Of a DNA stretch of 32,870 bases, positions 4,384-25,016 are shown in pieces. The position numbers and the translations under genes are program-made. A model generated the notes under the pieces. That model was not told the origin of the DNA. It did no database searches and saw nothing but the letters and a program-made list of their open reading frames with translations. The DNA lies in assembly GCA_013813875.1 (NCBI GenBank), contig JACCQZ010000046.1, positions 1 through 32,870 of the forward strand, read 5' to 3'. This DNA is from Gemmatimonadales bacterium (GTDB taxonomy: Bacteria; Gemmatimonadota; Gemmatimonadetes; Gemmatimonadales; GWC2-71-9). How positions within the stretch are numbered: the first letter of the stretch is position 1; every line of letters begins with the position of its first letter.

Positions 4384-4694
4384 GGAAGCCTCCAGCGGTC
4401 GTGGGGAATGTCCGGGTTCTGCCATCAACCTACCGCCGTGTGCTCGCGTCCGGCCCCCCTGCCGATCCCGGGCCTCGAGTGACCCAGGTCACCTGTCTTG
4501 TCACCCTGAGCAGAGCGAAGGGGGCATGATTCAGGTTATGTCCCCTTGGCTTCGCTCAGGGTGACACAGGGGCTTCTCCCAGGCAGCTTCCCTTCAGTTC
4601 CGCCCCGCTCCCTCTTTACGCGCGCGGTTTGACGGCGCACTTTAGGTCGCCCTTCCTGTGCCACCGATCTTCGCCTGCATCCAAGGAGCCCCCG
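4384..4694. other. Divergent intergenic region
   Basis: This 311-base gap separates the divergent PrcB-domain lipoprotein and YIP1 gene starts. It contains the palindromic element at 4500-4565 and the ribosome binding sites of both genes. TTGACG occurs near 4633 but no convincing -10 box lies at the right distance. I see no small gene in it. Confidence 0.6.
4500..4565. repeat. GTCACC/GGTGAC palindromic element, copy A
   Basis: A 66-base imperfect palindrome. The left arm is GTCACCCTGAGCAGAGCGAA followed by GGGG, and the right arm is its near-complement ending GCTCAGGGTGAC. The central segment contains TTCAGGTTATG. One frame reads CHPEQSEGG, a peptide signature shared by the copies at 14974, 23412 and 24930. 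It lies between divergent genes. Confidence 0.8.
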
Positions 4695-8568: not shown

Positions 8569-8596
8569 GATTGGGAATGGATAATTGGGGTGTGGT

Positions 8597-8665
8597 AAAG
8601 TCGAAAGTCGAAGGTCGAGGGTCGCCCGCACGACCTTCGACCTTCGACTCTTCGTCTTCGACTTT
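8597..8665. repeat. GTCGAAG-type hairpin, copy 1
   Basis: The left arm at 8597-8624 is made of AAAGTCGA, AAGTCGA and AGGTCGA units. The right arm at 8631-8665 is made of the complementary TTCGACC and TTCGACT units. The loop is six bases. The element fills the space between the divergent VWA and MFS start codons. Confidence 0.8.
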
Positions 8666-9896: not shown

Positions 9897-10535
9897 ATGC
9901 TCATAACCATTTCCCGCCAGTACGCCGCCGGAGGTACCGAGGTGGCCGAGCAGGTGGCCGCCGCGCTGGGGTGGCGCGTGGTAGACAACGAGCTGGTGGA
10001 GCGGGTAGCTGCGCGCGCGGGGTTGGCGCCGGAGGACGTGGCCGACCGAGAGGAGCGGGTGCCCACCTTCGTGGAGCGGCTGGCCCGCACGCTGGTGGCC
10101 GGCACTCCCGAGCTGGTCGTCCCCCCCGAAGCCGGTGGCACCGTCCCCGCGCTCTCGGAGGCGGACCTGGTGCGGATCACCGAGACGGTAGTGGCTGAGA
10201 TCGCGGCCGAGGGGCGAGTGGTGATGGTCGGCCGGGCCGCCCCCGCGGTGCTGGCCCATCGCGACGCGCTCCATGTCAAGCTGGTGGCCCCGAGAGAGCA
10301 CCGCATCCGGACCGCCGCCGCCAGCCTGAGCGTCTCGGTGGAGGAAGCCACCCGCATCCTCGACGACACCGACAAGATGCGCGCCCGCTACCACCGCGAG
10401 TACTACCATCGCGACTGGCACGATCCGGTCAACTACCACATGGTGCTCAACACCGCCGTGCTGGGGTTTGAGGGGGCGGCGGAGGTGGTGGTGGGGGAGG
10501 CAAGGCGAAAGTGGCAAGTGACAAGTGACAAGTGA
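9897..10535 (+). CDS. Cytidylate kinase-like family protein
   Basis: A 212-residue P-loop protein of the cytidylate-kinase-like family (Cytidylate_kin2 type). The N-terminus MLITISRQYAAGGTEVAEQV matches that family's usual ITISRQYGSGG opening, though AAGG replaces the common GSGG. The central VVMVGRAAPAVLAHRDALHV and the late REYYHRDWHDP segment also fit. A phosphotransfer function on a nucleotide or similar substrate is likely, but the family's substrate is poorly defined; the true cytidylate kinase is usually a separate cmk gene. Its last eight or so residues (RKWQVTSDK) and its stop codon are supplied by the AAGTGACA repeat, so the native C-terminus may have been replaced. It follows the MFS gene closely. 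Confidence 0.82.
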   Translation: MLITISRQYAAGGTEVAEQVAAALGWRVVDNELVERVAARAGLAPEDVADREERVPTFVERLARTLVAGTPELVVPPEAGGTVPALSEADLVRITETVVAEIAAEGRVVMVGRAAPAVLAHRDALHVKLVAPREHRIRTAAASLSVSVEEATRILDDTDKMRARYHREYYHRDWHDPVNYHMVLNTAVLGFEGAAEVVVGEARRKWQVTSDK

Positions 10536-10627
10536 CAAGTGACAAGTCACTTCCGCACCTGCCACCTTTTACCTCTTCACTTTCAACCTGTCACTTTCCA
10601 CTTTCCACCTGTCACTTTCCACTTTTC
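10507..10627. repeat. AAGTGACA-type inverted array, copy 1
   Basis: Four tandem AAGTGACA-like units preceded by AAGTGGC (10507-10546) face a longer, more degenerate array of GTCACTTTCC and CACTTTCCAC units (10547-10627). The array sits between the convergent kinase-like and AAA genes and overlaps the 3' end of the first. A long imperfect stem is possible. Confidence 0.8.
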
Positions 10628-14232: not shown

Positions 14233-15519
14233 CTATTGGTACAGCCCCCCTGCCCGATAGCTCTGGTCCAGAAGTTCCACCGGATGGGCTACGCCAATGT
14301 CGAGACCGGCGGCCCTGAGGCCCGCGCCGATCTGCATCAGGCAGCCGGGGTTGCCGCTTGTCACCAGGCGCGGCCGGGGAGCGGCGGCGGCGATGCCGGC
14401 GATCTTGTCGTCGAGCACTGCGCGGGCCATGTCCGGCCGCAGCAGGGAATAGATCCCGGCGCTGCCGCAGCAGCGGTCGGAACCGGGAAGAATATCGAGA
14501 CGAAGGCCGGGAATGGCACGCAGCAGCGCAAGCGGCGCCTGGTGAACCCGCTGCGCGTGTTGCAGGTGACAGGGCGCGTCGTAGGCCACGTCGAGCTCGA
14601 GCCGCCCGCCGGCGCGCGGCCCCACGTCGGCGAGGAGCTCGGAGATGTCGCGCACCTTGGCCGCCATTGCCTGGGACCCGGCGGTCCCGAGCAGGTGGCC
14701 ATAGTCCTTGAGCAGGGCCCCACAGCCGGCGCTGTTGACGGCGATATAGTCGGCCGATGCGGCAAAGGCCGCGACGTTCTCCGCCGCCAGCGCTCGCGCG
14801 GCCTCGCGATCGCCGGCGTGCTGGTGCAGCGCGCCACAACAGACCTGCCCCGAGACCTCCAGCACCCGGTAGCCGTTGGCCTCCAAGGTGCGGCGGGTGG
14901 CGTGGTGCACGTGGCCGAACAGGGTGTCCATCACGCAGCCGCGAAAGAGGGCGACAGTGGGGTGGGTGGTGTTGTCACCGTTGTTGCCCAGAGCGGAGCG
15001 AAGGGGCCGTGCCTCAGGGTATGCCCCCTTCCCCCTCCCTCTGCTCGGGGTCAGGGTGACATCGCTTCGGGTGGCGGCCAGCATGCCGAGCCCGAAGCCA
15101 GCCCGTGCTCCACCGGCTAGTAAACCCGGTATCCCCGTGGCCCGGAATACCCGGGCCAGCGCGAACAGCGGCCGCCACAGCCACTGGTGGCGGAACACCC
15201 CGAGCACCGCGCGTGCGAGTGGCGGCAGGCCGCGTTCCTGAAACAGCCGCTCCCGTGCCATCTCCAGCCCGCGGCCGTAGCCAACTCCCGAGGGACAGAC
15301 CGGCTCGCATCCGCGGCAGCCCAGGCAGGCGTCGAGATGCTGCACCAGCCCCGCGTCTCCCGATCCGAGCTCACCTCGCTCGAGCGCGCGCATGAGCACG
15401 ATCCGTCCGCGGGGGCTGTCCGCCTCATCCCCAGTGGCGAGGTAGGTCGGGCAGGCCGGGAGGCAGAAGCCGCAGTGGACACAGGGAGCGAGGGGGTCGG
15501 CCGCGGCCGTGCTAGTCAT
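14233..15519 (-). CDS. glcF: Glycolate oxidase iron-sulfur subunit
   Basis: A 428-residue electron-transfer subunit of glycolate oxidase, passing electrons from GlcD toward the membrane quinone pool. Two 4Fe-4S motifs of form CxxCxxCxxxCP lie at C13-C23 and C65-C75. Two cysteine-rich CCG domains follow, with VCCGALHQHAG and DRCCGSAGIYSLL. Residues about 152-182, between the ferredoxin part and the first CCG domain, are encoded by a palindromic repeat (14974-15060) and read VTLTPSRGRGKGAYPEARPL; related proteins have only a variable linker there. The ATG at 15519 follows GGAGG and overlaps the glcE stop by eight bases. Apart from the insert the protein looks intact. Confidence 0.92.
   Translation of the reverse strand: MTSTAAADPLAPCVHCGFCLPACPTYLATGDEADSPRGRIVLMRALERGELGSGDAGLVQHLDACLGCRGCEPVCPSGVGYGRGLEMARERLFQERGLPPLARAVLGVFRHQWLWRPLFALARVFRATGIPGLLAGGARAGFGLGMLAATRSDVTLTPSRGRGKGAYPEARPLRSALGNNGDNTTHPTVALFRGCVMDTLFGHVHHATRRTLEANGYRVLEVSGQVCCGALHQHAGDREAARALAAENVAAFAASADYIAVNSAGCGALLKDYGHLLGTAGSQAMAAKVRDISELLADVGPRAGGRLELDVAYDAPCHLQHAQRVHQAPLALLRAIPGLRLDILPGSDRCCGSAGIYSLLRPDMARAVLDDKIAGIAAAAPRPRLVTSGNPGCLMQIGAGLRAAGLDIGVAHPVELLDQSYRAGGLYQ
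14974..15060. repeat. GTCACC/GGTGAC palindromic element inside glcF, copy C
   Basis: An 87-base element with ends GTCACC and GGTGAC, containing GAGCGGAGCGAAGGGG on the left, a centre CCTCAGGGTATG close to that of copy A, and CTGCTCGGGGTCAGGGTGAC on the right. Its length is a multiple of three, and it keeps the glcF frame open. One other frame reads CHPDPEQREGEGG, related to the CHPE-SEG signature of the other copies. Confidence 0.75.
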
Positions 15520-18824: not shown

Positions 18825-18957
18825 AGTGACAAGTGCAAAAGTGGCCAGTGACAAGGGGGCGGCAAATGGCAAGTGCGGAATGGGAGCTGGGCATCCACTG
18901 CCAGCTTCCACTCCGCACTTGCCACTTCAACACTTGTTACTTGCCACTTTCTACTCG
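18825..18957. repeat. AAGTGACA-type inverted array, copy 2
   Basis: GAGTGACAAGTGC, AGTGGCCAGTGACAAG and GGCAAATGGCAAGTGCGG units on the left face CCACTCCGCACTTGCC and CACTTGTTACTTGCC on the right. The core arms 18868-18890 and 18901-18923 match in 21 of 23 positions around a ten-base loop. It separates the sigma factor gene from the LON-domain gene on the same strand, and could terminate or attenuate read-through. Confidence 0.8.
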
Positions 18958-18960
18958 CCT

Positions 18961-21184: not shown

Positions 21185-21726
21185 CAGGTCACATCTCCGG
21201 TACCCTGCCGGTGGTTGGCCACCCGCGCCAGGGTGAAGAGCAGATCGGAGAGCCGGTTGAGGTAGACCACGAACAGCACCGGCACCTCGGCCTCGTGCCC
21301 GAGGTGGATGACGCTCCGCTCGGCGCGGCGGCACACCGTCCGGGCCAGGTGGAGCGACGCGGCCTTGGGCGTTCCGGCCGGCAGCACGAAGGCGCGCAGC
21401 GGAGTCAGCTCCACGTCGGCCTCGTCCATGACCCGCTCGAACAGGGCGACGCGCTCCTCGGAGAGGTCGGCCTTCTGGAGCGCCCTGGCCACCTTGTCCG
21501 GGTCGGGCGTGGCCAGATGGCCGCCGATGGAAAAGAGATCGCGCTGGACCGACTCGAGGAGTGGATCGAAGAATTCCACCGGCGCGGCCGCTCGAGCGAC
21601 ACCGAGGGCCGAGTTGAGCTCGTCCACATCTCCATAGGCGGCCACCCGCGGATGGTCCTTGGGAACCCGCCCGCCGCCGAACAGTCCGGTGTCGCCTTGG
21701 TCGCCGGTTTTGGTGTAGATGGGCAT
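21181..21726 (-). CDS. PduO-type ATP:cob(I)alamin adenosyltransferase
   Basis: A 181-residue enzyme that attaches the adenosyl group of ATP to cob(I)alamin to make coenzyme B12. The N-terminal TKTGDQGDTGLFGG is the family ATP-binding signature, and the helical core with LARTVCRRAERSVIHL and FVVYLNRLSDLLFTLAR matches PduO/MMAB. The ATG at 21726 (MPIYTKTGDQG) begins at the signature; upstream sequence in frame is the GTCGAAG repeat and is excluded. It is translationally coupled to aroB. No B12 biosynthesis genes are in the window, so it probably serves salvage or repair of cofactor for B12-dependent enzymes elsewhere. Confidence 0.92.
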   Translation of the reverse strand: MPIYTKTGDQGDTGLFGGGRVPKDHPRVAAYGDVDELNSALGVARAAAPVEFFDPLLESVQRDLFSIGGHLATPDPDKVARALQKADLSEERVALFERVMDEADVELTPLRAFVLPAGTPKAASLHLARTVCRRAERSVIHLGHEAEVPVLFVVYLNRLSDLLFTLARVANHRQGTGDVTW

Positions 21727-21729
21727 GGT

Positions 21730-21814
21730 TAGGTCGAAGGTCGAAGGTCGAAGGTCTTGGGTCCGTGGGGGAAGACGCTCGGGACCACACGACCCAAGAC
21801 CTTCGACCTTCGAC
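21730..21814. repeat. GTCGAAG-type hairpin, copy 2
   Basis: Three GTCGAAG units then GTCTTGGGTC on the left (21730-21763) face an exact 24-base complement on the right (21791-21814), with a 27-base loop. The element starts four bases before the adenosyltransferase start codon and ends 33 bases before the start of the divergent reductase gene. Confidence 0.85.
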
Positions 21815-23411: not shown

Positions 23412-23443
23412 CAGGCAAGATCCCTCGCTGCGCTCGGGATGAC
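23412..23443. repeat. Half copy of a CHPERSEG-type repeat, copy E
   Basis: Read on the minus strand it is GTCATCCCGAGCGCAGCGAG then GGATCTTGCC. It is related to, but distinct from, the left arm of the palindromes at 4500 and 24930. The opposing arm is missing. It sits between dacB and sixA, both on the minus strand. One frame reads CHPERSEGS. Confidence 0.65.
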
Positions 23444-23455
23444 AACGGTGGCCCC

Positions 23456-24928: not shown

Positions 24929-24929
24929 T

Positions 24930-24994
24930 GTCACCCTGAGCGCAGCGAAGGGGGCGAAGCGCCGTGCTGGCCCCTTCACTTCGTTCAGGGTGAC
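24930..24994. repeat. GTCACC/GGTGAC palindromic element, copy B
   Basis: A 65-base imperfect palindrome, left arm GTCACCCTGAGCGCAGCGAA then GGGG, right arm CCCCTTCACTTCGTTCAGGG then TGAC. The centre (GCGAAGCGCCGTGCTGG) differs from copies A and C. It abuts the dacB start codon. One frame reads CHPERSEGG. Confidence 0.85.
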
Positions 24995-25016
24995 ATAACA
25001 GCGGAGCATCGCTCGC

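Follow-up and report, generated by a model that had tools for sequence, protein, structure and literature searches.

The glcF gene of a Gemmatimonadales bacterium carries a palindromic segment within its reading frame, and the locus thus raises two questions: whether this segment is a dispersed repeat that was inserted into a working gene, and why such a repeat would be kept there. The window, i.e., the whole stretch of DNA analysed (32,870 nucleotides), is contig C283 of a 3.3-Mb genome (G000; 363 contigs, 85.8% complete), and the genomes compared with it are MAGs or drafts.

The element within glcF

The host gene (14233..15519, minus strand) was assigned by Pfam and NCBIfam and encodes a glycolate oxidase iron-sulfur subunit of 428 amino acids. 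Its product matches Fer4_8 at residues 11-79 and CCG in two stretches (best 189-270); it also matches the NCBIfam model PRK11274 (GlcF) at E=5e-72, which lies under the model's curated cut-off. Adjoining ORFs resemble glcE and glcD, the genes for the FAD-binding subunits (named by eye from sequence), and GlcF matches are present in 59 of the 61 genomes searched. A search of the window for known structured RNAs in Rfam returned no match.

Comparison with other genomic copies and with sister linkers delimits an in-frame element of 81 nt, or 27 codons, that runs from TTGTTGCCC (14981) to GGGTGACA (15061) and covers GlcF residues ~153-180. The first-pass annotation had described an 87-base element at 14974-15060 encoding roughly 30 residues at 152-182; the repeat itself held, while its left border lies about 7 nt further inward and its placement in the protein was corrected. 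The GTCACC at 14974-14979 is probably an extra copy of the end motif outside the element, arisen by chance or by duplication. The segment aligns to many dispersed copies of the same genome (61 matches at E<=10; best non-self match 85% identical over 80 nt, E=3e-19), which confirms that glcF contains a palindromic repeat and leaves no room for the possibility that the segment bears no relation to other copies. The centre that had been noticed in both the glcF copy and the intergenic copy near 4500 (TCAGGGTATG and TCAGGTTATG, respectively) is indeed shared, and it is the spacer of the family.

Judged from its sequence, the full element consists of two REP-like units, each with a TGTC head, that form an inverted dimer with the heads outward. 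In glcF, the left unit (14981..15006, plus strand; TTGTTGCCCAGAGCGGAGCGAAGGGG) is of the standard type and, compared with other copies, has an eroded head, TGTT for TGTC. The right unit (15025..15061, minus strand; TGTCACCCTGACCCCGAGCAGAGGGAGGGGGAAGGGG) keeps its TGTC head and belongs to a long-arm subtype that also occurs in L003, L005, L006, L007, L008 and L025. As single-stranded DNA the glcF copy folds no better than its shuffles (z -0.56); it is an eroded copy that has largely lost its hairpin.

The gene has remained intact around this insert. The element lies between the ferredoxin part and the first CCG domain, as first proposed, both the Fer4 and the CCG domains are intact, and every Fe-S/CCG cysteine of GlcF is kept. 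The element is also in frame; the further claim that the inserted length is divisible by three is beyond proof, since the ancestral linker sequence cannot be aligned.

The repeat family and its known relatives

The family is abundant in the source genome, where exact matches to the core motif number 114 (none for the reversed-pattern control) and a search with the intergenic copy at 4498 gave 79 matches, many places being counted on both strands. Most sampled copies in G000 are inverted dimers of about 68-80 nt; the consensus from extracted copies reads TTGTCACCCTGAGCGNAGCGAAGGGGGCAT-spacer-ATGCCCCCTTCGCTCCGCTCAGGGTGACA (about 68 nt), and the long-arm subtype contains CCCTGACCCCGAGC..GCGAGGGGGAAGGG. 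Besides the glcF copy, the window holds a full-length intergenic dimer at about 4498-4566, found by the genome search and folding strongly as DNA (z -8.8), a dimer at 24929..24995 upstream of a D-Ala-D-Ala carboxypeptidase (S13) gene, and a single unit, or half element, at 23422..23448 (minus strand) on the 5' side of a histidine-phosphatase gene, the last two located by repeat match and Pfam. The longest ORFs at the latter two places translate repeat DNA (VTLNEVKGP and SSRAQRGI, respectively). The dimer overlaps an over-long ORF whose Pfam S13 match begins at residue 62, and the histidine-phosphatase match begins at ORF residue 22, past the repeat-coded part; gene starts called within either repeat are likely too far upstream. 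The genome also has a second dispersed hairpin class, in which 7-bp units of the AAGTGGC/AAGTGAC and GTCGAAG types are arrayed in inverted tandem; it was seen in the window at 8588-8623, 10498-10543, 18864-18960 and 21721-21814, and arrays built in this way lie in the GlcF linker of other genera.

The units share a common build, namely a TGTC head (outermost in intact copies), a stem, tandem G.A mismatches (GA/GA), two G-C pairs and a three-base loop, which can be written AYCCY-GA-GC-GNA-GC-GA-RGGR, the stem starting with AT only in the ATCC variants. Among 59 distinct units the stem covaries (CCCT/AGGG in 33, TCCC/GGGA in 12, CGCT/AGCG in 4, and others), and all four stem positions are paired in 54 of them, as against 24 of 224 control sites that have the same inner motif without the head. 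The loop is GNA in 52 of the 59. GNA loops closed by two G-C pairs form DNA mini-hairpins of exceptional stability (PMC4686876), and the GC-GNA-GC core of the units matches that structure. It is conceivable that this stability matters for the mobility of the repeat.

Copies inside genes are rare. They were counted with a Markov coding-frame model trained on the genes of the window, which called 204 of 204 test positions in known genes as genic and on the right strand; the census covers a sample of the copies, taken regardless of context except for the glcF genes of congeners, which were examined on purpose. A single one of 37 curated sampled copies was genic in G000, and this was the glcF copy itself; in G004 there was none among 37 besides glcF, whose insert scored as genic when taken at full length, and among 58 classified copies of G002 the genic ones were that in glcF and one in dnaE. 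Because genic copies are so rare in these three samples, we regard the family as almost confined to intergenic DNA. The dnaE copy of G002 (L267:680-760) is a single in-frame unit in a DNA polymerase III alpha/DnaE-type gene, encoding the peptide GCHPERSEGATTRGMT. In G003 there are only three exact core matches genome-wide, yet its glcF linker (L062) holds a TGTCATCCCGAGG...GGGATGACA insert; the genomic family of that species may be of a different subtype or mostly lost.

Rickettsia palindromic elements are small palindromes whose in-frame insertion spares the host gene, often adding 20-30 residues to its product, and they occur in many genes of one genome. The glcF element resembles them in behaviour, having inserted in frame into a gene that keeps its Fe-S/CCG motifs, but differs in that its family is almost purely intergenic, with one of 37 sampled copies genic instead of copies in many genes; the parallel suggested at the outset therefore stands for the in-frame behaviour. 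As to kind, the likeness is partial: the R. conorii elements RPE-4 and RPE-6 were placed among the CGTC-tagged REPs, a group defined with TGTC allowed (Di Nocera et al., 2013; PMC3733652), and the head of our family is the TGTC variant of their tag. According to the same study, CGTC-tagged REPs have no associated transposase, and some lie in frame inside genes, including those of DnaE-type polymerases, a tendency with which the G002 dnaE copy agrees. In-frame intragenic REPs have already been documented in several phyla, so that the in-frame behaviour, which the first-pass annotation had considered noteworthy, is not in itself a novelty.

We conclude on the same sequence grounds that the glcF-element family is CGTC-like without belonging to any of the four families of Di Nocera et al. 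(2013; PMC3733652), because it shares with them the head, the dimers, the lack of a transposase and the genic copies but not the build of stem and loop. Like those REPs, it has an unpaired terminal TGTC head (the glcF copy has kept it on the right side and reads TGTT on the left), frequent inverted dimers with spacers, a mostly intergenic distribution with occasional in-frame genic copies, and no transposase association, there being no REP unit near five Y1 matches. Unlike them, it has tandem G.A mismatches in the stem, a GNA triloop and no CCA tail, whereas CGTC-tagged REPs have an 8-9 bp stem starting with complementary AT, a loop of 4-5 nt and a CCA-like tail. Its host phylum, Gemmatimonadota, goes unmentioned in that study. 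A likeness to REPINs (Bertels and Rainey, 2011; PMC3116915) lies in the dispersed inverted dimers, the single units and the non-autonomous nature; the REPIN head is GTAG, not TGTC, and our family differs from the REPIN/RAYT pairing in having no REP-flanked RAYT and in that several congeners rich in copies lack Y1 transposases.

The transposase search covered the Y1 class, within which no mobilising enzyme for the repeat was identified. IS200-type Y1 transposases (PF01797) occur in four of ten genus members and are missing from G001, G002, G004, G006, G008 and G009, and the surroundings of the five Y1 matches of the genus, out to about 1.5 kb, are free of REP units. A RAYT was accordingly rejected as the mobiliser, since most congeners lack Y1 transposases and those present have no repeats on their flanks. 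The target-site duplication expected of an IS-derived MITE was rejected as well, the junctions of G000 copies showing no direct repeats above shuffles. Literature searches with the sequence string of the repeat core found no earlier description, the string matches being on unrelated subjects by title, and searches combining Gemmatimonadota with REP returned nothing on this subject by title and abstract.

The GlcF linker across relatives

The GlcF comparison combined the matches from 59 of 61 genomes with 80 named loci from Gemmatimonadales/Gemmatimonadota MAGs and gave 87 distinct proteins, in which the linker was measured between the conserved GM[LV] and CVM motifs. Nearly all Gemmatimonadaceae have linkers of 33-36 residues (near-constant 34); elsewhere the length ranges from 33 to 74, without conservation at the protein level, so that relatives do not all carry one and the same conserved segment. 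This species has 53 residues, the extra ones being the repeat, which is absent from sister linkers. Together with the near-constant length in Gemmatimonadaceae, this supports insertion rather than an ancestral segment, as had been supposed. In an AlphaFold2 model built from an alignment of 47 sequences, residues ~151-182 form a coil of low confidence (pLDDT 50-66). This coil follows a helix at 139-148 and precedes the CCG domain, whose first strand is at 188-191. In our reading, the GlcF linker is a disordered, permissive segment where insertions that arrive at random can persist.

The same linker was hit elsewhere. REP-type inserts occur in five of nine genus members (G000, G002, G003, G004 and G008), and a different REP type sits in the linker of L101, which the tree places outside the genus. 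The inserts begin 27, 75, 68, 42, 41 and 22 nt from the GM[LV] codons (G000, G002, G003, G004, G008 and L101, respectively), fall into three reading phases and belong to different subfamilies; those of G008 and G004 have 89% and 84% copies, respectively, elsewhere in their own genomes. When a GlcF tree is built with the linker left out, the REP label needs four changes, at least three of them forced by starred branches, and the nested sister G001 has a 40-residue linker without the repeat. REP-type elements have thus probably entered the GlcF linker several times independently in the genus. A precedent on a smaller scale is provided by recB, where REPs lie at about the same site in two Xanthomonas species (PMC3733652).

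In other genera of the order the linker is occupied by inverted tandem arrays of period 7, 8 or 10, whose units differ even between close relatives. These arrays are unrelated to the REP element in sequence or build, and we take them to be akin to short tandemly repeated heptamer arrays (STRR-like) in inverted pairs. Compared with equal-length windows of the same gene, the linker has the best hairpin in 25 of the 42 long cases (about one expected) and in two of the 45 short ones; a hairpin score of at least 15 is reached by 17 long linkers and nowhere else in the 87 genes, and against dinucleotide shuffles 21 of the 42 long linkers beat all and stand at the floor of p, with none of the 45 short ones doing so. 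The linker of G002, with only one REP unit, gives no hairpin signal. Relatives also carry inverted tandem arrays, with units differing per species, where glcD meets glcE and glcE meets glcF; these lie ~1.3 kb upstream of glcF in L080, L083 and L084 and just upstream of it in L064 and L067.

Why the linker accumulates repeats

The explanation that we consider likely is that a non-autonomous REP dimer inserted into the glcF linker and was kept there since it was tolerated. A trans-acting enzyme, with single strands as its probable substrate, would move a copy of the small palindromic repeat into the interdomain linker, where nearly any protein sequence would be tolerated; the copy would be retained if it brings neither frameshift nor stop. 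That tolerance is the cause of its retention is what we infer. Copies landing in other coding sequence would be purged, leaving survivors that are nearly all intergenic, and a copy once inserted would decay, as the eroded hairpin of the glcF copy suggests. The linker would then be a recurrent safe landing site, both for REP-type elements and for the unrelated inverted tandem arrays, and since unrelated repeat classes converge on it, we attribute this to a property of the site at the protein level and not to one transposase.

It is also possible, but in our judgement unlikely, that the linker is a lineage-wide selected slot for hairpin DNA or RNA that serves glcDEF expression or co-translational folding. 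An mRNA structure might, for example, slow translation between the domains, tune glcDEF stoichiometry or protect the mRNA, and unrelated hairpin families would have been recruited to the same place for that function. Such selection would account for unrelated hairpins at one place in many species, far above the control windows, and for their being kept while the unit changes among close relatives; a clade of 12 species that has hairpins throughout, built from changing units, could hint at the same. However, a significant hairpin is missing from ~17 of the 42 long linkers and from almost every one of the 45 short ones, and neither the copy described here (z -0.56) nor the single unit of G002 folds convincingly. 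The absence of the hairpin from many species and the decay of the glcF copy argue against a required hairpin, although the data do not sharply distinguish tolerance from positive selection, be it for a hairpin or for a longer linker.

We give less weight still to a single ancestral REP insertion in the genus, followed by vertical descent and overwriting by gene conversion. The concentration of REP-type inserts in one genus would fit it, and the four label changes on the tree can be divided between gains and losses; against it stand the differing subfamilies, offsets and reading phases, the repeat-free linker of the nested sister G001, and the different REP type in the same linker of L101, outside the genus. 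That the insertion machinery prefers the DNA of the glcF site, tolerance aside, is very improbable: one locus has been struck repeatedly while other genes are almost free of copies, but the repeat classes converging there are unrelated and presumably move by different mechanisms, and neither a strong flanking motif shared among the G000 copies nor a target duplication was found. Chance or low-complexity convergence in an ordinary hypervariable linker, to which its variability and GC richness might lend themselves, is refuted by the match at E=3e-19 over 80 nt including the family-specific spacer, by the comparison of copies and by the shared long-arm subtype.

Reports of in-frame palindromic insertions have come one by one, chiefly from Rickettsia and from a few species rich in REPs. 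What appears to be new here, in-frame REPs themselves having been published, is the recurrence of hits by several families on one linker: on the preferred reading of tolerated insertion, a family almost banned from genes enters one linker repeatedly across species, alongside unrelated hairpin repeats. For annotation the finding is a warning that predicted proteins may include translated repeat DNA, of which peptides such as VTLSEAKG, HPERSEG and SSRAQRG can be a sign, and the GC-GNA-GC core offers a lead to how the repeats might be recognised as single strands. Moreover, whether repeats shape proteins by drift or by recruitment becomes testable at one gene with many natural replicates.
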